Positions 12,795 to 28,715 of a DNA stretch of 44,156 bases are shown one piece after another. How positions within the stretch are numbered: position 1 is the stretch's first letter; each line of letters begins with the position of its first letter. The notes beneath the pieces were generated by a model. That model made no database searches. It was not told the origin of the DNA and saw only the letters and a program-made list of their open reading frames with translations. Origin of the DNA: Acidobacteriota bacterium (GTDB lineage Bacteria > Acidobacteriota > Thermoanaerobaculia > Multivoradales > Multivoraceae). The stretch covers positions 1 to 44,156 of the forward strand of contig JAGWAG010000035.1 of assembly GCA_021296535.1 (NCBI GenBank). The letters run 5' to 3'. The translations under genes and the position numbers were made by a program.

Positions 12795-13736
12795 TCACTC
12801 CTGCTGCCGGAGTTCGACGCGAAGCGACACGTCTTCGCCCTTGGTCGCATTGAAGGCGCGCACGGCCGCTTCGTAGCCTGGGCGTGTCACCTCCAGGCGG
12901 TGCGTGCCCGGGTCGATGATCAGGGGTGAATGGAGATTCGCCAGTTGGGCGCCACTGCCCAGTAGTCGCCCGTCCAGGTACACGACCGCGTCGGCCGGTT
13001 GGACTTCGACCATCAGGCGTGCCGGCGTGCTGCGTTGATCCTGATCGATCGGCTGGCCGCGGTTCTCGACTCTCCAGGACTCGCCGGCAGGCGCGGTCCG
13101 TGCGGCGGCGGGCGCCGGCGCGGGCGGTTGCGGCTGCACAGCCTGACCGGGGACGAGGTCCTCGTCGATCTTGATCACCACGCCGGGGCGAACGCTGATG
13201 TTCCGCTCCAGGGTGACATGGCCCTCCATGAAGATCGCCAACCGGTAGCTTCCCTCACGCAGCCACAGATACCGGGGGAAGCCGTCGAACGCGCCCACGC
13301 GTCCGATCAACTCGCCATCGAGGTAGACCGATGCCTTCTTCGGTTTCGTGTTGATATCCAACGCGCCCGCGTTGGGCACCGCGAAGCCGGCCCGCTCCGG
13401 TCCCCAGGCGTAGGGGCCGTAGTGACTGTACGGAGAGAAGTAGTAGGGCCAGAACGAACCGAAACCCCCGTACCAGTCGAATGAGCCGTAGTAGGGACGG
13501 TAGATCGCCCGCGACCGGGTTCTGCCTCTCTTGCGGGCGCCTTCCCGGCGTTCACCCCGGTCGCTGGCTTCGATAGCGACCGGCACCGAAACGGCCGCCG
13601 TCCTGGCGATCCCCGCCACGGCATCATGCGCTCCCGGGGTCGCCTCCGCTCCCCCGGCCAGCCCAAGGCCCAACAGGAAGGCAATCGCCGGCGCCGACGC
13701 GCGACGAACCAGCGTGGTGCATCCGTGTCCTCTCAT
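12795..13736 (-). CDS. Secreted protein with two PEGA domains and an aromatic-rich linker
   Basis: This 313-residue exported protein has its ATG at 13736-13734 sharing one base with the stop of the upstream glycosyltransferase (TGATG). A signal peptide (APAIAFLLGLGLAGGAEA) is followed by a basic stretch and a Tyr/Phe/Trp/Gly-rich segment (YYGSFDWYGGFGSFWPYYF). Then come two PEGA-type beta domains: KKASVYLDGELIGRV...LREGSYRLAIFMEGH and PADAVVYLDGRLLGSG...IDPGTHRLEVTRPGYEA, separated by a Pro/Ala-rich linker. PEGA domains are usually extracytoplasmic and are thought to bind surface polymers. The frame is open far upstream, but that part is antisense-like noise over the glycosyltransferase, so the ATG is preferred. 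Confidence 0.85.
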   Translation of the reverse strand: MRGHGCTTLVRRASAPAIAFLLGLGLAGGAEATPGAHDAVAGIARTAAVSVPVAIEASDRGERREGARKRGRTRSRAIYRPYYGSFDWYGGFGSFWPYYFSPYSHYGPYAWGPERAGFAVPNAGALDINTKPKKASVYLDGELIGRVGAFDGFPRYLWLREGSYRLAIFMEGHVTLERNISVRPGVVIKIDEDLVPGQAVQPQPPAPAPAAARTAPAGESWRVENRGQPIDQDQRSTPARLMVEVQPADAVVYLDGRLLGSGAQLANLHSPLIIDPGTHRLEVTRPGYEAAVRAFNATKGEDVSLRVELRQQE

Positions 13737-14689
13737 CACGTCCCTCCCTGGTCCAGACCGGCGCCGTCGGACCAACCGTTCCTCAGTCCTTCCAGATAGT
13801 AGTGTCGCATCGTCTTCTCCCAGAGCCGGGGCAATCTGAACGGCATTCCCTGCAACGCGCGCGCCAGCCGCTCCTGGGCCCACAGCAGGGCGCGCTCCAC
13901 GGCGCCTCCCGCCAGGGGGGGCTGGCCGTTCTGCATCCCCAGAAAGGGCCCGAGCTGTTCGTGGCGGCGGAAGAACACGACCGCGCAGTAGCCAGATCGG
14001 TACTGCCGCTGCGCGAACCGCGCCAGATCGGTTGGGTGGTCGTGCGCCACGCGGGCCGCGGGCCGGTAGAGCAGCCGCAGGCCATGCGCCGTGAGCCGGT
14101 AGCCGGCCTCGACATCCTCCCAGGCCGCGAAGGGAAACGCCGGATCGAATGGCTCCGCCGCCATCGCTTCCCGGTCGACCGAAAGGTTCGACGTGTAGAA
14201 GAAGTTGAACGGCACGTTGTCCTGATCCTCGATCAGGGCGAAGCCGAACTGAAGCCCGTGCTCGTTGATGTAGTCGAGAAAGGGCGTGCGACGCATCCGA
14301 GGATGCCAATCCGTCCTGCCGATCACTCCGACGCATCCTCCTGCGGATCGAATCTCCCGCGCGAGTTCTCCCTCCTGAGCCCGGGCATGGGCCGCCAACC
14401 ATCCCGCAGCGGGGACGGTGTCGTCACCGAGAAAGGCCACCCACCGGCCACGAGCCGCCGCAACACCCCTGTTACGGGCCACGGCGGGTCCCCGGTTCGG
14501 CTGGTGCAGGACCCGAAGCCCGGTCCCGCCGGCGTCGCTGACGGCGGCCTGTGCGTCCAGCCAGGCCGAGGTGCCGTCCGAACTGCCGTCGTTGACCACA
14601 ATCACCTCGAACCGCGGTCCCTCCTGCCGGTGGAGTGCGTCGATCACCTCACGGAGCGCCGGCAGGCGGTTGAAGGTCGGAATCACCAC
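13736..14689 (-). CDS. Glycosyltransferase family 2
   Basis: This GT-A enzyme of about 317 residues probably adds a sugar to a surface glycan. It begins almost directly with the first strand, VVIPTFNRLPALREVIDALH, then VIVVNDGSSDGTSAWL, the GPAVARNRGVAAARG helix, and FLGDDTVPAAGWL with the DDT (DxD-type) metal site. Later segments (FFYTSNLSVDREA, FAAWEDVEAGYRLTAHGLRL) supply the ED acceptor motif. The start is probably the GTG at 14689 or the next codon, because GGAGGGAG lies about six bases upstream; this places the start 41 bases inside the previous gene. No membrane helix is seen. Confidence 0.88.
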   Translation of the reverse strand: MVIPTFNRLPALREVIDALHRQEGPRFEVIVVNDGSSDGTSAWLDAQAAVSDAGGTGLRVLHQPNRGPAVARNRGVAAARGRWVAFLGDDTVPAAGWLAAHARAQEGELAREIRSAGGCVGVIGRTDWHPRMRRTPFLDYINEHGLQFGFALIEDQDNVPFNFFYTSNLSVDREAMAAEPFDPAFPFAAWEDVEAGYRLTAHGLRLLYRPAARVAHDHPTDLARFAQRQYRSGYCAVVFFRRHEQLGPFLGMQNGQPPLAGGAVERALLWAQERLARALQGMPFRLPRLWEKTMRHYYLEGLRNGWSDGAGLDQGGT

Positions 14690-16046
14690 GCTCCACTCCC
14701 TCCATGACCTCTTCCAGCGTGCGCCGAACCAGCGCGAGTCCCTCCGGCAACATGGCCTCGAAACCTGAGCTTCCGAACAGCTCTTCGTCGCCCGGATAGG
14801 TCGGCACGACATAGAGCGGGAAGCGCTCGAAGATCTCACCATCCGGACGCCGGCGTCTCGCCTGGATCCGACGCCGGCGTTCGGCAGCGTCGTCGAGCCC
14901 GCGAATGATCGAAGACACGGCTCGTACCTGAGCCAAGGTCTGATCATCGACGATCGCAGGCACGCCATCAGGAAGTCCGCTGTGCGGCCGCGCGAAACGC
15001 CTCAGCCTGGTGCGGAGCGCGACGATGTACCGGAGCCGCTCCCATGCATCGCGCGCCCTGGAGCTCACGGCGGGCCTCCCTCTCTCACCGCCATCTCCGC
15101 CGACTCCAGTAGTGCCCGCGGCGAGAACACCGCCATAGCCGTCCATCGGAGCGGCGTACGGGTCGACGGCCAGTTCCTGACCGTGGGGGTTGCGGTTCGC
15201 GAGCAGGTGCTGGATGCGGGCGAGCAGCGTCGTCTGCACGACCGGCATCACTTGCGGCCACAGTTCGGCATCGTAGTTCTTGAATGCGGTGAGATAGGCG
15301 TTGCGCTCGAACAGGAGTCCACGGTTGGCATTCCCCAGCAGCTTGCTCGTGGCCATCGAGCGATGGTGCACGACCGCCCCGGGCGCCGACAGCACACGCT
15401 CACCAGCCGACCACAGGCGCCAGCCGAGATCGACATCCTCCAGGTAGGCGAAGTACGACTCGTCGAAACCGCCCGCCGCGAGGTAGGAGTCACGACGGAC
15501 GATCATGTTCCCGCCGCATGGGAACAGCAGTTCACAGCCCTCCTCCGGCATCTCGATCGCGTCCAGCGGTCGGTGGTAGTCGAGTTGAAAGGCGTGGCCG
15601 TCGAAGGTCATCACGCCCCGGCCGAAGTCCAGTCGGTCGCCCTTCCAGTTGACGATGCCGCCCGAAACCGCGGCGACATCGGCCGGGGCGTCGGCCAACC
15701 CGGCAACCAGTTGGGCCAGCCAGTCCGGCCGGGGCCGGGTGTCGTTGTTGACCAGTACCAGCGCACTGGCGCTGCTTCTGTCCGCCAGTCGATTGTTCGC
15801 GGCACTGAAGCCGATGTTGGACGGGTTCGCGACCACGTCCACACGAGGATGGTTGGACCGGACCCAGGTCACCGTGCCGTCGGTCGAGCCATTGTCGAAT
15901 AGGCAGACTCCTACCCGGACGTCGGCAACCTGCTGAGCCTCAAGTGCCGGCAGGAGGGTCTCCAGGTGGTGGCGACCGTTCCAACTCACCACCAGGACGT
16001 CGACGCTGTCGATCCGTTTCCGGCCGGCGGAAGACCCCGTGGTCAT
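14649..16046 (-). CDS. Glycosyltransferase family 2 (rhamnosyltransferase-like)
   Basis: This 465-residue GT-A transferase begins MTTGSSAGRKRIDSVDVLVV. The donor-site segments are SWNGRHHLETLLPALEA, CLFDNGSTDGTVTWV, the helix NPSNIGFSAANNRLA, and ALVLVNNDTRPRPDWL. Then come CGGNMIVRRDSYLAAGGFDE and YFAYLEDVDLGWRLWSAGER with the catalytic-loop ED. This set is typical of GT2 enzymes that build rhamnose-containing polymers. The C-terminal 190 residues are an Arg-rich helical extension without recognisable fold. The ATG at 16046 overlaps the preceding gene's TGA (ATGA). The rmlD-like gene nearby would fit a rhamnosyl donor, which is inference. Confidence 0.88.
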   Translation of the reverse strand: MTTGSSAGRKRIDSVDVLVVSWNGRHHLETLLPALEAQQVADVRVGVCLFDNGSTDGTVTWVRSNHPRVDVVANPSNIGFSAANNRLADRSSASALVLVNNDTRPRPDWLAQLVAGLADAPADVAAVSGGIVNWKGDRLDFGRGVMTFDGHAFQLDYHRPLDAIEMPEEGCELLFPCGGNMIVRRDSYLAAGGFDESYFAYLEDVDLGWRLWSAGERVLSAPGAVVHHRSMATSKLLGNANRGLLFERNAYLTAFKNYDAELWPQVMPVVQTTLLARIQHLLANRNPHGQELAVDPYAAPMDGYGGVLAAGTTGVGGDGGERGRPAVSSRARDAWERLRYIVALRTRLRRFARPHSGLPDGVPAIVDDQTLAQVRAVSSIIRGLDDAAERRRRIQARRRRPDGEIFERFPLYVVPTYPGDEELFGSSGFEAMLPEGLALVRRTLEEVMEGVERGDSDLQPPAGAP

Positions 16047-17317
16047 CTGCCAGCCGCCATCGCGCTCGCAAGACGCGTCCGAAACCAGCGCCGGAGCCGG
16101 AACCCGAGTTCGTCGGCCGGAGCCGCCGTAGAGGGCCTGAAGGCGAACTCCTCCTTCGTGGGATCGACGCGCGGAGAATCGAGGAAGGCCACCAGGGGCG
16201 CCAGACTACGCTCCCAGGAGAAGGTCGCCAGCGCCCGCTCCCTGCCGCGAAAGGCTCTCGCCTCGACCTCCGGTCCGCCGGCGACCAACTCAGCGAGACC
16301 CGCTCTCAGCGCTTCGACATCGCCGCACGGTGCCACGAGGCCGGCATCCCAGTCCTTCAGCAGGCGGGGCACGGTGCCGCCATCAGTGGTCAGCACCGGA
16401 CAGCCGACCGCGAGGGCATCGACGAACCGGGTGCGCAGCGACAGATCGGTCTCCAGTCCCGGTCGATGGCAGGCCGTCAGCGCGTCAACGTCCCGCAACA
16501 GGTCGTAGCGCCGCTCGAATGGAACCCAATCGATAAAGCCGATCCGTTCCGGATCCTCACGCCTGCTTCGCGCCTCCACCTCTTCCAGCAGCCGTTGAGG
16601 TGCCTGCGCGCCCGGCGGCTGCCGAACAAACAGGAGACGAGCGTTCGCCGCGGGCAGCGCAGCGAAGGCCTGGAGGAGGGGCTCCGGGTCGTACCAGTCG
16701 TACAGGCCGCCGAACAACAGCCGCCGCTCGCCCGTGGCCCGCGGAGGCAGCAACGGTCGGTAGTCAGGCAGCGGATCCGGCACGCCGAACGGCGCCTCGA
16801 CGATGAGGCCGGAGAGACTCGGATCATCGCGGTAGCGGTGGGGGTTCACCCGGCCCAGGGCAGTCAGGAAGCCCAGGTAGTAGGCGCGCTGTTCGGACGA
16901 GGAGCAGAGGAAGAAATCGCCCCGAGCGAGCTGATGAACCCAGGTCTGATGATCGTTCCGGTACGGATCGAGTCCCAGCGTGTCGAAGTGGGTCAGGTTC
17001 TCCACAAGGAATGGATCATAAAGATCGACCGCGGTCGGCAAGTCGGGCAGCTCGTGGAGCACGTTGTTGGCCAACTGTCCCTGGGCCACGGCGACATCGC
17101 AGTCCTCCAGCAACACCGCCAGCGGCGCGGAGTCGAATTCGCGCACTTCCGCCGACCCACTGCCGACGTCCGGCGATTCCCCGGAACGCCAGGGAGACAC
17201 AAGGACGGTGCGGAACCCGAACTCGGGAAGGCGATGCGCCATCTCCAGGTAGCGGATTCCGATACCGGCCGCGCGTTCACCGAGCGCCTCGCTGCACACC
17301 AGGCCAACACGCGTCAC
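16043..17317 (-). CDS. Glycosyltransferase, GT-B fold (GT4-like)
   Basis: This 424-residue two-domain GT-B protein has an N-terminal acceptor domain that starts TRVGLVCSEALGERAAGIGI, and includes VAVAQGQLANN and TAVDLYDPFLVENL. The C-terminal donor domain has RRLLFGGLYDWYDPEPLLQA, IGFIDWVPFERRYDLL and DLSLRTRFVDALAVGCPVLTTDG, the last resembling the E-x7-E donor-binding region with SLRTR in place of the usual pattern. The start is GTG at 17317, with GAGGAG about nine bases upstream. It is the second gene of the glycosyltransferase run, 48 bases after the deacetylase fusion gene. Substrate unknown. Confidence 0.85.
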   Translation of the reverse strand: MTRVGLVCSEALGERAAGIGIRYLEMAHRLPEFGFRTVLVSPWRSGESPDVGSGSAEVREFDSAPLAVLLEDCDVAVAQGQLANNVLHELPDLPTAVDLYDPFLVENLTHFDTLGLDPYRNDHQTWVHQLARGDFFLCSSSEQRAYYLGFLTALGRVNPHRYRDDPSLSGLIVEAPFGVPDPLPDYRPLLPPRATGERRLLFGGLYDWYDPEPLLQAFAALPAANARLLFVRQPPGAQAPQRLLEEVEARSRREDPERIGFIDWVPFERRYDLLRDVDALTACHRPGLETDLSLRTRFVDALAVGCPVLTTDGGTVPRLLKDWDAGLVAPCGDVEALRAGLAELVAGGPEVEARAFRGRERALATFSWERSLAPLVAFLDSPRVDPTKEEFAFRPSTAAPADELGFRLRRWFRTRLASAMAAGR

Positions 17318-17365: not shown

Positions 17366-19478
17366 TCAGCCATCGGAGCCGCGCAGCGACTGCAGGCGTT
17401 CACGCAATCGCCAGGCTCTCGTTGCTTTCATTGCCTCGATCTCGGCTTGCAGGTCCCGTTCACGACCGTGAAGCCTGTGGATCTCGGCTTCATGCTTCTC
17501 CTCCAGAGTCTGTAGCCGCTTGATCTCCGCACCGCGTTCTGAATGCGACGACTCCAGCTCACGCTCACGAGCCTGCAAACGCTCGATCTCCGCGCCGAGG
17601 TCCGAATGCGACGACCCCAACTCACGCTCGCGAGCCTGCAAGCGCTCGATCTCCGCGCCGAGGTCCGAATGCGACGACTCCAACTCACGCTCGCGGGCCT
17701 GCAAACGCTCGATCTCCGCGCCGAGGTCCGAATGCGACGACTCCAACTCACGCTCGCGGGCCCGCAAACGCTCGATCTCCGCGCTGAGGTCCGAATGCGA
17801 CGACTCCAACTCACGCTCGCGGGCCCGCACTCGCTCCAGGTCCCGCTGACGTCCGCGAATCTGGGCGCGAGCCGCCTCGCCGGCCAGGACCGCCTGGCGG
17901 CGCATTCGAGTTACCGCTCGCGCCAGTGCATCCGGGCCGAGGTCCGTCGCGTGTTTACTCAGGACCTTCGCTTTCAGCGTCTCAAAGTCGGGGCGGGCAG
18001 AAGCCGCCCCACCAAGTGCATGACCTCCTGAGAGTTCGTCCGCCGCGCCGTCCAGGAAGTGCCGGTACTCGCACGTCGTGCGAGCGAGGTGGACGAAGCT
18101 CGATGAGCGCGACACGCGAATCAGCAGATCCCAATCCTCGAAGATCGGCAACTGAAGATCGAACGAGCCCGCCCGCTCCAGCGCTTCCCTCGTCATCAGA
18201 ACCGTATGGAACGGAATGTAGTTGTCGAGGAGGAGGATCGTCCGATCGAAGTCCCGGCTGTACGGGAGGCGCCGGCTGCTCTCCCTCCAACCGCTCGTAC
18301 TCGGTTCGTAGCAGACGACGGCCGCATCGCTGTAGGCGACATCCACACCGTCGCGGAGCATCGCAGTCAAGCTCTCCAGGTGTTCCGGCGCCAACAAGTC
18401 ATCGTCGTCCAGGAAACCGATGCAGTCGCCAGTCGCCGCCTCCACGCCGGCCTGCGCCGCGGCCGACCGACCTCGATTCTCCGCGAAGTCAACGCGACGC
18501 ACTTCGAACGGGAAGTCCTCCGCCACTTCGGGGCGCCGGCCGCCGTCGTTTACGAGAACGACCTCTACGTTCCGGTAGGTACTCAGCGCCAGACTGTTCA
18601 GTGCCTCCGCCAGCCGCCGGGGTCGGTTGTACGTCCGGACCACGATCGACACCCGGCGAGGCGACGTGACTGCGACCAGCGAAGGTGCACCGCCCAGGTA
18701 CGCGATCAGTTGAGCCGGACTTCGGGTGGTGAAGTCACTCGCAGTCAACTGGCAGTAGCCCTCGGCGTAGCGGCATGAATCCGGCAGCGTGAGCGACCGG
18801 TAACGCCGCAGACCTCGACAGGAGCCCATGTAGTCGTGGCGTTCCAACTGGCTTCGATAGTGGGCCATCGCATCGACGACTCGGTCCAGCTCAGCCGTCA
18901 CGTCGACGAGCAGATCGGGGTAGAAGGGGTGGTTTACCTCGTAGCAGAGAACCCGCAGCGCCAGGTCGCCGACGCTTGAGTCGTCGTCCTGGCTGGCAAG
19001 CTCTTCGCCCCCTTCCGTTCGTCCCCGCCTGCGGTTGATCAAGGCCTCGTGTAGCGCGCGAAACGTCGCCTGATGATCCGGCGTCACTTCGAGAGGTGAT
19101 GGCGCGAGCAGCAGGTCCGGTCTGTGTTCCTGTAGCAAGGCCTCGATGTGGCTGGTCAGCCGGTCAAGCGAGGAAACGAGCGTGCCATCTCTCAAACCGC
19201 CGTCCGAGCCCGGATGCTCCACGCTGTCGATGCCGAGTACCTTGGCGGCCGCATCCGCTTCCGCCCTCCGCCGGTCGGCGTACTGTTCTCTCTTCCGCAC
19301 CGCCCGAGCCGTCGCTCATGAAGGCACAGACGACCTTCGCGCCGGCCGCGGCGAGTTGCAGGATCAGGCCGCCGCACCCCAGCACCTCGTCATCGTAGTG
19401 GGGCGCCAGGACGAGTACCCGACGAGCCGTCAGGGATTCCGGCGCGGTCGGCGGCAGCGGCCGCTTGTGACCCGTCAC
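17366..19478 (-). pseudogene. PIG-L deacetylase - GT2 glycosyltransferase - coiled-coil fusion, frameshifted
   Basis: From GTG 19478 the first frame encodes the start of a LmbE/PIG-L deacetylase: RRVLVLAPHYDDEVLGCGG, with the zinc motif (usually PHPDDE, here PHYDDE), then CAFMSDGSGG. At about 19296-19305, next to a CCC run, the frame breaks and continues at REQYADRRRAEADAAAKVLG through TPDHQATFRALHEALI and VLCYEVNHPFYPDLLVDV, which completes the deacetylase. A GT2 domain follows: VSIVVRTYNRPRRLAEAL, VLVNDGGRR, ENRGRSAAAQAG, CIGFLDDDDLLAPEHL and LPIFEDWDLLIRV. The end is a long coiled coil with five 21-residue repeats and ATRAWRLRERLQ. The span is one base over a full frame of about 703 residues. 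Zinc-dependent sugar N-deacetylation plus glycosyl transfer is inferred. Confidence 0.82.
17510..17824 (-). repeat. Five tandem 63-bp repeats encoding a 21-residue heptad coiled coil
   Basis: Five head-to-tail units of exactly 63 bases lie inside the fusion gene. Each encodes A-R-E-R-E-L-E-S-S-H-S-D-L-G-A-E-I-E-R-L-Q with a few substitutions; the unit nearest the C-terminus has SERGAEIK. The 21 residues equal three heptads, so the coiled-coil register is kept across every unit. Units 2-4 are nearly identical in DNA, which points to recent unequal exchange or slippage. Confidence 0.93.
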
Positions 19479-24195: not shown

Positions 24196-25125
24196 CTAAG
24201 AGGGATCTCCACCCTTCACCCCGTCGGCGGAACCGCCGCTACCCGGCGCTTCCGTCGACAGCACTATCCGGTCCCTGAACCGCAGATCGACGACTTCGGG
24301 ATCGCTGTGTTCCCTGATCGCCACCTCGAGCAGCTCGAACACCGAGCCCTTCGCGGTCAGATCCCTTTCGCGGACCAGGACGGTCGCCGGCCGGCCGCTG
24401 CGCTCGAACAGATAGTCGTCGTCGTCGCTCAGTACTCCGACCGCGAACACCTCGCGGCCCCAGGCGAACGACTTCACCTCGCTGGACACGTCGATGGCCC
24501 GTTTCAACGTCCGCGCGAGCACTTCGCCCGAGACGTCCCTCGAAGCGAGTCCCGTGACACCGGGATTCCGCGCCGGACTCTCGCCGACACGCTCCCCGAG
24601 CAGCGCGCTCTGAATCGACACCCGAATCAGGGCGCTCCCGGCGCCGGGGGCTGGACCGCCGCCGCAGAGATCGGCGGCGCGCTCGCAAGCCACGATCGCC
24701 CTGCCGTCACGATCAATGATCCAGGACCGATCTCCCGACTCGAACACCGCCGCCGGCTCGTGTTCCACGATCCGTACATCGAGCTGGTCCGGCAGGTTCT
24801 TCACCAGCTTCGCTTCCCGCACCCACTCATGCTCGAGCCGCGCCGCGGCGTCCTCCAGGGAGAGCAATGGCAGGTTGCGTCCCACCAGGCCGGCAAGTCG
24901 GGCGCGTACCCACTCCTCGGACACCCGCGCCCCTGTCTCCACCGCGATATCGGGCTTCAGCTTGAACGCCGGCGCCGTCGCCAGCCAGACGCCAACCGCC
25001 ACGACCGGCGCCACGCCCAGAAGAACCTTGGAAACGCCCATCGCAAACCAGACGACGGGCCGCGGGCGACGACGGCGCACGAGCCGGCGCACGACGAAGG
25101 GTCCCCCGGTTCTGCCGCGGCTCAT
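24196..25125 (-). CDS. ftsQ: Cell division protein FtsQ
   Basis: FtsQ is the bitopic divisome protein that links FtsB and FtsL to the early ring. It has 309 residues from the ATG at 25125. An Arg-rich cytoplasmic tail (RRLVRRRRPRP) leads to one membrane helix (LLGVAPVVAVGVWLATAPAF). A POTRA-like segment follows (VSEEWVRARLAGLVGRNLPL; LEHEWVREAKLVKNLPDQLD; VRIVEHEPAAVFE), then the FtsQ beta domain with SWIIDRDGRAI. It overlaps the murC stop as ATGA. No ddl or murB separates it from murC. Confidence 0.93.
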   Translation of the reverse strand: MSRGRTGGPFVVRRLVRRRRPRPVVWFAMGVSKVLLGVAPVVAVGVWLATAPAFKLKPDIAVETGARVSEEWVRARLAGLVGRNLPLLSLEDAAARLEHEWVREAKLVKNLPDQLDVRIVEHEPAAVFESGDRSWIIDRDGRAIVACERAADLCGGGPAPGAGSALIRVSIQSALLGERVGESPARNPGVTGLASRDVSGEVLARTLKRAIDVSSEVKSFAWGREVFAVGVLSDDDDYLFERSGRPATVLVRERDLTAKGSVFELLEVAIREHSDPEVVDLRFRDRIVLSTEAPGSGGSADGVKGGDPS

Positions 25126-26543
25126 GTTCCTTCCTCCCCGTCGGCCACGAGCAGTCGGGCCAACCGGTAGATGTCCCCGGCGCCGAGAGTGAGAATCATG
25201 TCTCCCTCGCGGACCGCCGAGCCGAGGCGCTCGGGCGCCATGTTCCAGGGACCGCAACCACGGACGCTGGGGTGGCCACTGCCGGAGGCGGCCGCCACGA
25301 CCAGGCTCCCGTCCACCCCCGGGAGCGGCTTCTCACGGGACGGATAGATGTCGGTGACCAGAGCGTTGTCAGCCAGCAGCAGGGCGCGGCCGAAGTCGTC
25401 CGCCAGGTCCCGCGTCCGGCTGAACAGGTGCGGCTGAAAAACGGCGTGAAGCCGCCGCGGCCGGCCCCCTTCCGGCCCGAGATCCAACACCTCGCGAGCG
25501 GCCCGCAGCGTCGCCTCGACCTCGGTCGGGTGGTGGGCGTAGTCGTCCACGACGGTCGCTCCCCGCCAACAACCGACGAGCTCGAAGCGCCGGTGGACGC
25601 CCGAGAAGCCGGAAAGCGCTTGAGCGGCCGTGTCGAAGTCGAGCCCGACAGCGCGGGCCGCGGCCACCGCGGCGAGCGCGTTCAGGACGTTGTGTCGGCC
25701 AGGCATCGGCAGTGCGAGCGCACCGAGGCGACCCGCGCCCGAGTCGACGACCTCGAAGCGCACGCCGGAGACAGTGGGCTCGAAGTCGCGGGCCCGCAGG
25801 TCTGCCTCCGAGTCGAAGCCGTAGGTCACGATGCGCCGGTCCGCGAGGCGGGGCAGCATGTCCCTCAGGTTCGGATCGTCGACGCAGGCGATGATCTGAC
25901 CGAAGAAGGGAACCCGGCTGGCGAAGCGCACGAAGGCGTCCTTGATGTCGGCCAGGTCGCGGTAGGTGTCCAGATGATCGACGTCGATGTTCGTGATCAC
26001 GGCGATCACCGGCGCCAGATCGAGGAAGCTGCGGTCGAACTCGTCCGCCTCCGCGACCAGGTAGTCGCTCTTGCCGTGGCGCGCTCCCGTGCCGGTCACC
26101 CGAAGCCGGCCGCCGACGACGACGGTCGGGTCGAGGCCAGCGTCGGTCAGCACACTGCCCACGAGCGACGTCGTCGTCGTCTTGCCGTGCGTACCCGCCA
26201 CGGCGATGCCGTACTTGAGCCGCATCAACTCGGCCAGCATCTGGGCTCGGCGCACAATCGGAACGCCGCGCCGGCGCGCCTCAACGACCTCTTCGTTACC
26301 GGAGGGAACGGCAGAAGACACGACGACCAGGTCGGCGTGCTCCACGTTAGAGGCCGAGTGGCCGACGAAGACGAACGCGCCGAGCTCGACAAGCCGCTGC
26401 GTGGTCTCGCTCGCCTCCAGATCGGAGCCGCTGACGCCCAGGTCGTAGTTCAGCAGGACCTCGGCGATGCCGCTCATTCCGGCGCCGCCGATACCGACGA
26501 AGTGGATCCGTTCGAGGCCCGCGGTGCGCAGGAACAGCGGCAT
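25122..26543 (-). CDS. murC: UDP-N-acetylmuramate--L-alanine ligase
   Basis: MurC adds L-Ala to UDP-MurNAc, the first peptide step of peptidoglycan synthesis. It has 473 residues. The N-terminal nucleotide-sugar site is IHFVGIGGAGMSGIAEVLL. The ATP loop is IAVAGTHGKTTTTSLVG. DEFDRSFLDLAPVIAVITNI and NIDVDHLDTY are central-domain blocks. YAHHPTEVEATLRAAREVL and AVFQPHLFSRTRDL belong to the C-terminal domain. The ATG at 26543 shares one base with the murG stop (TGATG). The alternative longer reading of this frame overlaps murG and is unsupported. Confidence 0.97.
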   Translation of the reverse strand: MPLFLRTAGLERIHFVGIGGAGMSGIAEVLLNYDLGVSGSDLEASETTQRLVELGAFVFVGHSASNVEHADLVVVSSAVPSGNEEVVEARRRGVPIVRRAQMLAELMRLKYGIAVAGTHGKTTTTSLVGSVLTDAGLDPTVVVGGRLRVTGTGARHGKSDYLVAEADEFDRSFLDLAPVIAVITNIDVDHLDTYRDLADIKDAFVRFASRVPFFGQIIACVDDPNLRDMLPRLADRRIVTYGFDSEADLRARDFEPTVSGVRFEVVDSGAGRLGALALPMPGRHNVLNALAAVAAARAVGLDFDTAAQALSGFSGVHRRFELVGCWRGATVVDDYAHHPTEVEATLRAAREVLDLGPEGGRPRRLHAVFQPHLFSRTRDLADDFGRALLLADNALVTDIYPSREKPLPGVDGSLVVAAASGSGHPSVRGCGPWNMAPERLGSAVREGDMILTLGAGDIYRLARLLVADGEEGT

Positions 26544-27642
26544 CAGGGCCTCCTCCCGCCAGCGGAGGCGTCCGCGATCGCGCAGACGCGCTCCGCGACG
26601 ATCCGTGCCGCATCGCCCCGCCCGTGGGCGCGCGCCGCCCGAGCCATGGACGACAGCCGTCCTCGATCCGCGACCAGGCGCCCGCATCGCTCGGCGGCCG
26701 CCGAGCCCCGCAGATCGTCCTGCTCGACCATGATCGCCGCCCCCGCGTCGACCATCGCCTGCGCGTTGCCGCGCTGGTGCCCCGCCGCCAGCGGCAGCGG
26801 CACGTAGACCGCCGGCCGACCGGCCGCGGCCACCTCGGCCACCGTCACCGCACCCGCCCGCGAGACGATCAGGTCGTGAGCCGCCATCGCGCCGGCCGTG
26901 TCCTGACCGTTGCTCGAAGCGACGGCGCCTCCAGACTCAGGTAGCGGTCCCGGGTGTCGTCGACTCGGGAAGGTCCCGACTGGTGCGTCACCTCGATGGC
27001 TGCCCGTCGGGAGGCCCGGGCGAACAGGCCCGGCAGTCGGCGATTCAGAGCATCCGAGCCCTGGCTGCCGCCGAGTACCAGCACCCGCGTCCGGTCGCCC
27101 TCGAGCCGTGGCTCGCCGACCAGGCAAAAGGCCCTGCGCACCGGAACCCCGACCAGCCGGGCCTCGCACGCCAACTGCTGCGCGGCGGATTCGAAGGCAG
27201 TTCCCGCTTCCGTGGCAAACCGCGAGAGCAGCCGGTTCGCCGCGCCGCTCTGCGCGTTCGGTTCGAGCAGATAGAGGCCGGTTCCGTTCAGTCGAGCCCC
27301 CAGCGCGGCCGGGGCGCAGGCGTAGCCACCGGTGGCGAACACGACCGCCGCACCGAGCCGGCGCAGCAGCACGGCGGCACGCAGCGCGGAACCCGCCAGT
27401 ACACCCAGGGCGATCGCTCGCGCCAGGGCGCCGCGGTCCACGAATGCCCGCGCCGGCAGCGGTCTGAAGTCCAGTCCGGCCGCGGCAACCAACCGTTCTT
27501 CGAGACTCCGCCCGCGTCCGATCCACGCCGTGCGCCAACCGAGGCTCCGCAGTTCCTCGGCCACTGCCAGACCCGGGAACACATGGCCGCCGGTTCCACC
27601 ACCGGAGAAGACCACCGAGGGACGGCGAGTGGGAGTGCTCAT
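26543..27642 (-). pseudogene. murG: UDP-GlcNAc:lipid I GlcNAc transferase MurG, frameshifted
   Basis: MurG converts lipid I to lipid II on the inner face of the membrane. From the ATG at 27642 (ATGA overlap with ftsW), the N-terminal domain reads VVFSGGGTGGHVFPGLAVAE, FATGGYACAPAALGA, LLEPNAQSGAANRLLS and VLVLGGSQGSDALNR. After YLSLEAPSLRATV the frame is lost. It resumes one frame over as QDTAGAMAAHDLIVSRAGA and VTVAEVAAAGRPAVYVPLPLA, with GHQRGNAQAMVDAGAAI and the normal C-terminus. The break is near 26900-26930. The span is 1100 bases, one short of a 366-residue protein. MurG is essential and sits inside an intact cluster, so a lost base in the assembly is far more likely than a dead gene. 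Confidence 0.93.
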
Positions 27643-28715
27643 CCATGCTCCGAAACGCTCAGGAGGAGGCCGCACGCGACCAGAGTCATGACGAGGGAGG
27701 AGCCGCCGTGCGAAAGGAACGGCAGCGGCGTGCCGGTGACCGGGACCAGCCCGACGGTGACGCTGATGTTGACGAGCGCCTGGATCAGCACGGCCGAGGT
27801 CAGTCCCCAGGCGAGAAACCGGCCGAAGTTGTCCGGGGCCTTGTGTCCGGCCACGTAGCCCCGCCAGGCAAGAACGACAAAACCGGCCAGGACCGCGGCG
27901 GCTCCGATCAACCCCAACTCCTCGCTGACGATCGAGAAGATGAAGTCGGAACTCGCGAGCGGCAGGAAGTACAGCTTCTGGGCGCTCTCCCCCAGACCCT
28001 GCCCGGTCACGCCGCCGGAGCCGATCGCGATCAGCGACTGGAGCACCTGGAAGCCTTTGCCCGACGGGTCGGTCTCCGGTGAAAGGAAGCCCAGCACCCG
28101 CTCCACGCGGTAGGGCTCCGACCAGATGAAGAGCCCGAGGAGCGCCGGGAACACGAGCAACCCGGGCACGAGCCAGCGCCAGGACAGACCCGCGAGAAAC
28201 AGCATGATCGCCGAGATCCCGAGAATCAGCGCGGCGCTGCCGAAGTCCGGGGCCTGCAGCACGAGCAGGGTCACCAGCCCGACGGCGACTCCGCACGGCA
28301 CCAGGACCCGGGGCTGACTGACCCCCTCGGGACAGCGGTGAATCTGGTAGGCGAGAAAGAGGATGACGGCGACCTTGGCTAACTCCGACGGCTGGAACGT
28401 CACCGGTCCAAGGGACAGCCACCGGCTGCTGCCGTTGATCGGCGGCGAGGCCAGCACGATGCCGAGCAGCCCGAGCGAGACGCCGAGGCCGGCGTATATC
28501 AACCACGGCCTGGCCCAGCTCCGGTAGTCGATGTTCATCAGCACCAGCATCGCGCCCAGGCCGACGATCGCGGCCGCCAACTGGGTGACGAACTGCCGCT
28601 TGAAGCCGCCGTCGGGATCGGGGGGGTTGGCCGAATAGACCATGACCAGGCCCCCGACAACCAGCAGGACGACGACGGTGAAGAGCACCTTGTCCATGGC
28701 GAGCTTCCTAGCCAT
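27639..28715 (-). CDS. ftsW: Septal peptidoglycan glycosyltransferase FtsW
   Basis: FtsW is the SEDS-family polymerase that extends septal glycan together with FtsI. It has 358 residues and about ten membrane helices. Family marks include VYSANPPDPDGGFKRQ near the first loop, SRWLSLGPVTFQPSELAK, APDFGSAALILGISA, and SDFIFSIVSEELGLIGAA in the large loop. The catalytic-side Asp is in SSDF, and the end carries VPVTGTPLPFLSHGGSSL. The ATG at 28715 overlaps the murD stop by eight bases. RodA is the alternative, but the position inside dcw favours FtsW. Confidence 0.96.
   Translation of the reverse strand: MARKLAMDKVLFTVVVLLVVGGLVMVYSANPPDPDGGFKRQFVTQLAAAIVGLGAMLVLMNIDYRSWARPWLIYAGLGVSLGLLGIVLASPPINGSSRWLSLGPVTFQPSELAKVAVILFLAYQIHRCPEGVSQPRVLVPCGVAVGLVTLLVLQAPDFGSAALILGISAIMLFLAGLSWRWLVPGLLVFPALLGLFIWSEPYRVERVLGFLSPETDPSGKGFQVLQSLIAIGSGGVTGQGLGESAQKLYFLPLASSDFIFSIVSEELGLIGAAAVLAGFVVLAWRGYVAGHKAPDNFGRFLAWGLTSAVLIQALVNISVTVGLVPVTGTPLPFLSHGGSSLVMTLVACGLLLSVSEHG

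Follow-up and report, generated by a model that had tools for sequence, protein, structure and literature searches.

A PIG-L deacetylase, GT2 glycosyltransferase and coiled-coil fusion in Acidobacteriota, a possible stalked enzyme of ABC-exported glycans

In the GPI-anchor, mycothiol and bacillithiol pathways, which involve enzymes of the PIG-L family, an amino sugar is transferred and then de-N-acetylated. Among the coiled-coil proteins of glycan assembly, WbdD comprises an N-terminal terminator, a coiled-coil ruler and a C-terminal part in contact with the membrane or the polymerase (PMC11231755, PMC5082667). The window, i.e. the whole stretch of 44,156 nucleotides of acidobacterial DNA that was analysed, contains a gene on the minus strand (17366..19478) in which a PIG-L domain, a GT2 domain and a long coiled coil are joined. 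A search of an open-access library, with matches judged by title and abstract, yielded no paper that describes this fusion.

Domain organization and distribution of the fusion gene

The gene is interrupted in its own assembly, and its extent was defined using Pfam and the intact orthologs. The read-through protein, with the frame break bridged by X, matched the PIG-L profile (PF02585) at residues 22-146 with an E-value of 1.1e-25 and a score of 91 bits, compared to a gathering score of 28.2, and the Glycos_transf_2 profile (PF00535) at residues 278-436 with an E-value of 1.8e-26 and 93.5 bits, compared to 23.3. The profile check suggested by the sequence-only reading thus gave scores well above both cut-offs. 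The genome also contains other matches to the PIG-L profile (C75 and C56). According to its translation, the N-terminal part of the PIG-L domain (first 59 codons; 19302..19478, minus strand, as are all features below) includes the first zinc motif, PHYDDE (19386-19403). Conservation and motif coordinates place the remainder of the domain at 19043..19291, with the His of the DH motif, the third zinc ligand, at 19061-19078. The GT2 catalytic domain, delimited by Pfam and conservation (18173..18649), carries the motifs VNDGG (18539-18553) and LDDDD (18398-18412), and FEDWD lies just downstream of it (18128-18142).

A whole-genome search of 60 genomes, the own genome included, found the fusion as a single unbroken frame in 40 relatives, 19 from the same genus and 21 from the same family or order. 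The frames, the domain order and the break near 19300 were therefore as first read, and a misreading of two separate genes as one is ruled out by these open frames. Split genes, which would be expected in close relatives if the fusion were spurious, were seen only in two more distant Acidobacteria, where PIG-L and GT2 are encoded by separate and divergent genes. H27, D29, D30 and H142, the counterparts of the zinc ligands and the catalytic Asp, and the acidic motifs of the GT2 domain do not vary among the 24 orthologs aligned, all 40 have the DH motif, and LDDDD and FEDW are conserved. Both catalytic motif sets proposed from the sequence are thus borne out, and the deacetylase half keeps its zinc ligands. 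The Tyr in place of the usual Pro in the first zinc motif, to which attention had also been drawn, is real but not diagnostic, as it is found in 30 of the 40 orthologs and is replaced in the remainder by Pro, Phe, His, Ala or Gln.

The named relatives are metagenome genomes of Thermoanaerobaculia/'Holophagales' and other Acidobacteria, with a few records labelled otherwise, e.g. Deltaproteobacteria. The longest frames among them (1145-1460 aa) were considered as larger fusions, but the match begins hundreds of residues into the frame, so that they look like upstream stop-to-stop extensions. Two genomes of the same order (G031 and G058; loci L155:6881-8350 and L156:8625-9788) encode a PIG-L domain joined directly to a C-terminal TRAWRLH motif. 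Here PIG-L and the C-terminal motif persist in the absence of GT2 and of most of the coil, which makes the GT2-coil part dispensable in these two genomes.

Predicted structure and length of the stalk

The intact ortholog L075 was modelled with AlphaFold from a 15-sequence alignment, which gave a mean pLDDT of 83.7 and a pTM of 0.74. The PIG-L part of the model was matched by VIA-align to BshB (6p2t; Z 25.2, rmsd 2.1, 203 aligned residues) and to a chitobiose deacetylase (3wl3_B; Z 24.8, rmsd 3.7, 228 aligned), and its GT2 part to AvpGT (9jn3_B; Z 23.6, rmsd 3.0, 243 aligned) and the K4 chondroitin polymerase (2z87_A; Z 23.5, rmsd 2.8, 228 aligned), fold matches which are silent on donor and acceptor. 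The structure prediction proposed with the original reading is therefore consistent with a deacetylase and a GT2 enzyme. The model continues in an uninterrupted helix (517-600), followed by a distinct one at the C-terminus (603-616).

In the window, the stalk corresponding to the long helix has 181 residues from KAKV to the C-terminal motif (17432..17974), and much of it consists of a 63-bp tandem repeat in 5.1 copies (17517..17836), each unit encoding 21 amino acids, i.e. three heptads. Runs of N occur within the coiled-coil repeats of two other sequences (L038 and L039); a tandem array of this kind may not be resolved by assemblers. The stalk is followed by a conserved basic C-terminal helix, MKATRAWRLRERLQSLRGSDG (17369..17431), which corresponds to the model helix 603-616 and whose Met and Trp are invariant in the 24-sequence alignment. 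Membrane binding by this helix is not supported by its hydrophobic moment, which exceeded that of shuffled sequences in only one of the seven sequences tested and was not significant in the other six.

In 38 proteins the stalk, taken as the segment between the KARV-type motif and the M..TRAW motif at the C-terminus, is 76 to 191 residues long, and 76 to 181 within one genus. At ~1 nm per heptad (PMC5082667), the full range corresponds to roughly 11-27 nm. When the 23 distinct lengths were taken modulo 7, 12 fell in class 6, 10 in class 2 and one in class 5, so that 22/23 belong to two classes that differ by half a heptad. An outcome this extreme did not arise in 200,000 random draws, a result whose probability serves only as a guide, as the draws treat the lengths as independent although the proteins are related. 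Moduli other than 7 gave no signal in the stalk lengths, and three control spacings between motifs outside the stalk showed no modulo pattern. These results support a continuous coiled coil that stays in register as it becomes longer or shorter. However, heptad-stepped lengths are expected for any continuous coiled coil, whether it acts as a ruler or otherwise, which counts against length as proof of a ruler.

Operon context and possible function

The fusion gene (FUS) is the first gene of an operon, FUS-GT4-GT2-GT2, found repeatedly in members of the order. According to Pfam and neighbourhood comparison, it is followed by a GT4-type glycosyltransferase gene (16043..17317) and two GT2-type glycosyltransferase genes (14649..16046 and 13736..14968, the latter with its true start probably within the ORF), all on the minus strand; neighbour gene calls are approximate, genes having been chosen by codon composition. 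A genome of the same family (G021) has the arrangement wzm-wzt-GT2-FUS-GT4-GT2-GT2 on one strand, and Wzt-type ATPases are encoded near the fusion gene in several more genera of the order. Further neighbours in the order include a GNAT protein, a sulfatase, more glycosyltransferases and a YfhO-like membrane protein. In the window's own genus, argS adjoins the operon, and neighbourhood comparison detected no wzm/wzt beside the fusion gene. A single Wzm/Wzt_C pair was found in the own genome, on another contig, with a Wzt that shares only about 36% identity with the cluster-linked protein. At three loci (L172, L173 and L176), large putative secreted proteins are encoded between wzm and wzt; they might be glycosylated surface proteins.

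From the operon, the wzm/wzt linkage and the stalk, we propose that the protein is a stalked glycan modifier in an ABC-transporter-dependent pathway, a bifunctional enzyme that would add a HexNAc and de-N-acetylate it, with the coil as spacer or ruler. We put the probability of this reading at about 0.42. In the cytoplasm, the GT2 domain would most likely extend a lipid-linked glycan by an N-acetylated amino sugar, and the PIG-L zinc domain would then strip the acetyl group from this sugar. The coiled coil would keep the catalytic head at a set distance from the basic C-terminal helix, which is supposed to contact either the membrane or the GT4/GT2 enzymes that the operon provides for polymerisation. 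The resulting glycan would leave the cell via a Wzm/Wzt ABC transporter, and with the stalk as spacer or ruler only chains that are long enough would be modified, as in WbdD. The fusion, the conserved motifs, the predicted fold, the operon, the wzm/wzt linkage in related genera and the heptad-stepped stalk are directly supported; we infer the identity of the sugar, the order of the reactions, the capping of chains and the role as a ruler. The converse order suggested at the outset, deacetylation followed by transfer, is less supported, because the GPI-anchor, mycothiol and bacillithiol pathways transfer first. The suggestion of a coiled-coil machine for glycan length fared better, gaining support from the wzm/wzt linkage in relatives and from the heptad-stepped stalks, with the ruler itself as a putative role.

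Several observations weigh against the stalked, length-sensing modifier: the distance of wzm/wzt from the fusion gene in the own genus and the low identity of the own Wzt, the fit of heptad-stepped lengths to any continuous coiled coil together with a random test that ignores kinship, the two genomes of the order that keep PIG-L and the C-terminal motif alone, and the weak hydrophobic moment of the C-terminal helix. It is quite possible, at somewhat less than even odds, that the protein is instead an ordinary chain-building GT2/de-N-acetylase, which places a glucosamine-type residue in the repeat or core of a surface glycan and whose coil oligomerises or docks with no measuring of length. The domains, the operon and the coil are accounted for equally well by such an enzyme, its basic C-terminal helix could serve for docking, and an oligomerisation stalk would tolerate the spread of lengths seen within one genus. 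However, it does not by itself predict the linkage to wzm/wzt or the lengthening of the stalk by three-heptad tandem repeats.

A narrower form of the proposal, somewhat less probable, is that these proteins represent a new class of coiled-coil chain terminators for ABC-exported glycans, in which one polypeptide would add and de-N-acetylate an amino-sugar cap and the stalk would be tuned by heptad-unit repeats. An N-acyl exchange, in which GT2 adds a HexNAc, PIG-L frees the amine and a GNAT enzyme re-acylates it, could be combined with either the stalked-modifier or the chain-building reading but appears rather unlikely: a GNAT-domain neighbour occurs at 12 loci of the order, and in one genome (G033, L158:7878-11174) a single 1099-aa frame encodes PIG-L, GT2 and the coiled coil, followed by a GNAT domain, but the Pfam score of that domain barely exceeds the cut-off (26.7 vs 25 bits) and no GNAT cluster was seen next to the fusion gene in the window's genus.

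The frame break coincides with a deletion of 20 nt relative to same-genus genomes (junction at 19291..19292, minus strand, by DNA alignment). The missing segment is kept by every aligned same-genus sequence that spans the site (n=13), the extracted piece of two further ones ending at or before it. On the same contig, murG, an essential gene, carries an out-of-frame deletion of 13 nt at 26903 of the window, compared to 14 aligned same-genus genomes. As an out-of-frame deletion in murG is unlikely to be biological, an assembly error is favoured for both: the break in the fusion gene is probably one, judging from sequence comparison rather than reads, and the murG deletion is likewise best read as an error of this assembly. 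The fusion gene could be a pseudogene in its own organism, the 20-nt out-of-frame deletion of the assembly being real and the deacetylase lost, but this is unlikely given the murG deletion and the dN/dS of 0.08-0.29 in all three pieces of the gene tested, which indicates purifying selection both before and after the break. In relatives of the genus, murG and murC share one continuous frame (window 25125-27658; 848 aa in L037:16680-19226) and may thus encode a fused MurG-MurC protein.

Comparison with described systems

PIG-L-GT2 fusions as a category are already present in other phyla, and the Acidobacteriota fusion is a variant of them. Those of Desulfobacterota, Bacteroidota, Kuenenia, Beta- and Gammaproteobacteria share about 26-35% identity with it, most have the same domain order and several have coiled-coil tails, but the profile of the C-terminal motif of the Acidobacteriota family was undetected in them. 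The predicted PIG-L fold (Z about 25) and the zinc and base residues are shared with BshB and diacetylchitobiose deacetylase, which are stand-alone enzymes, whereas in the fusion this domain is joined to GT2 and the Pro of HxDD is usually Tyr. The GT2 domain resembles AvpGT, the K4 chondroitin polymerase and WrtF (Z 23-24), a likeness of fold that does not specify donor or acceptor.

If the proposal is true, an amino-sugar cap would add a terminator chemistry to the few known coiled-coil rulers, in bacteria with poorly studied surface glycans. The tandem-repeat stalks would then provide natural length variants for testing coil length against glycan length. K. pneumoniae likewise has proteins of ABC-dependent O-antigen assembly in which a coiled coil bears a glycosyltransferase or modifying module, namely WbbB of serotype O12 and the coiled-coil terminators of O4 and O7 (PMC11231755), but they are without a PIG-L deacetylase and differ from the fusion in catalytic modules and domain order. 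WbdD of E. coli O9a and K. pneumoniae O3 shares with the fusion an N-terminal catalytic head and a long coiled coil, and would also share with it a C-terminal contact region and the setting of an ABC-transporter glycan (PMC11231755, PMC5082667). Its head is a kinase/methyltransferase, whereas that of the fusion is a GT2 enzyme with a PIG-L deacetylase, for which a role as a ruler is suggested by this likeness.
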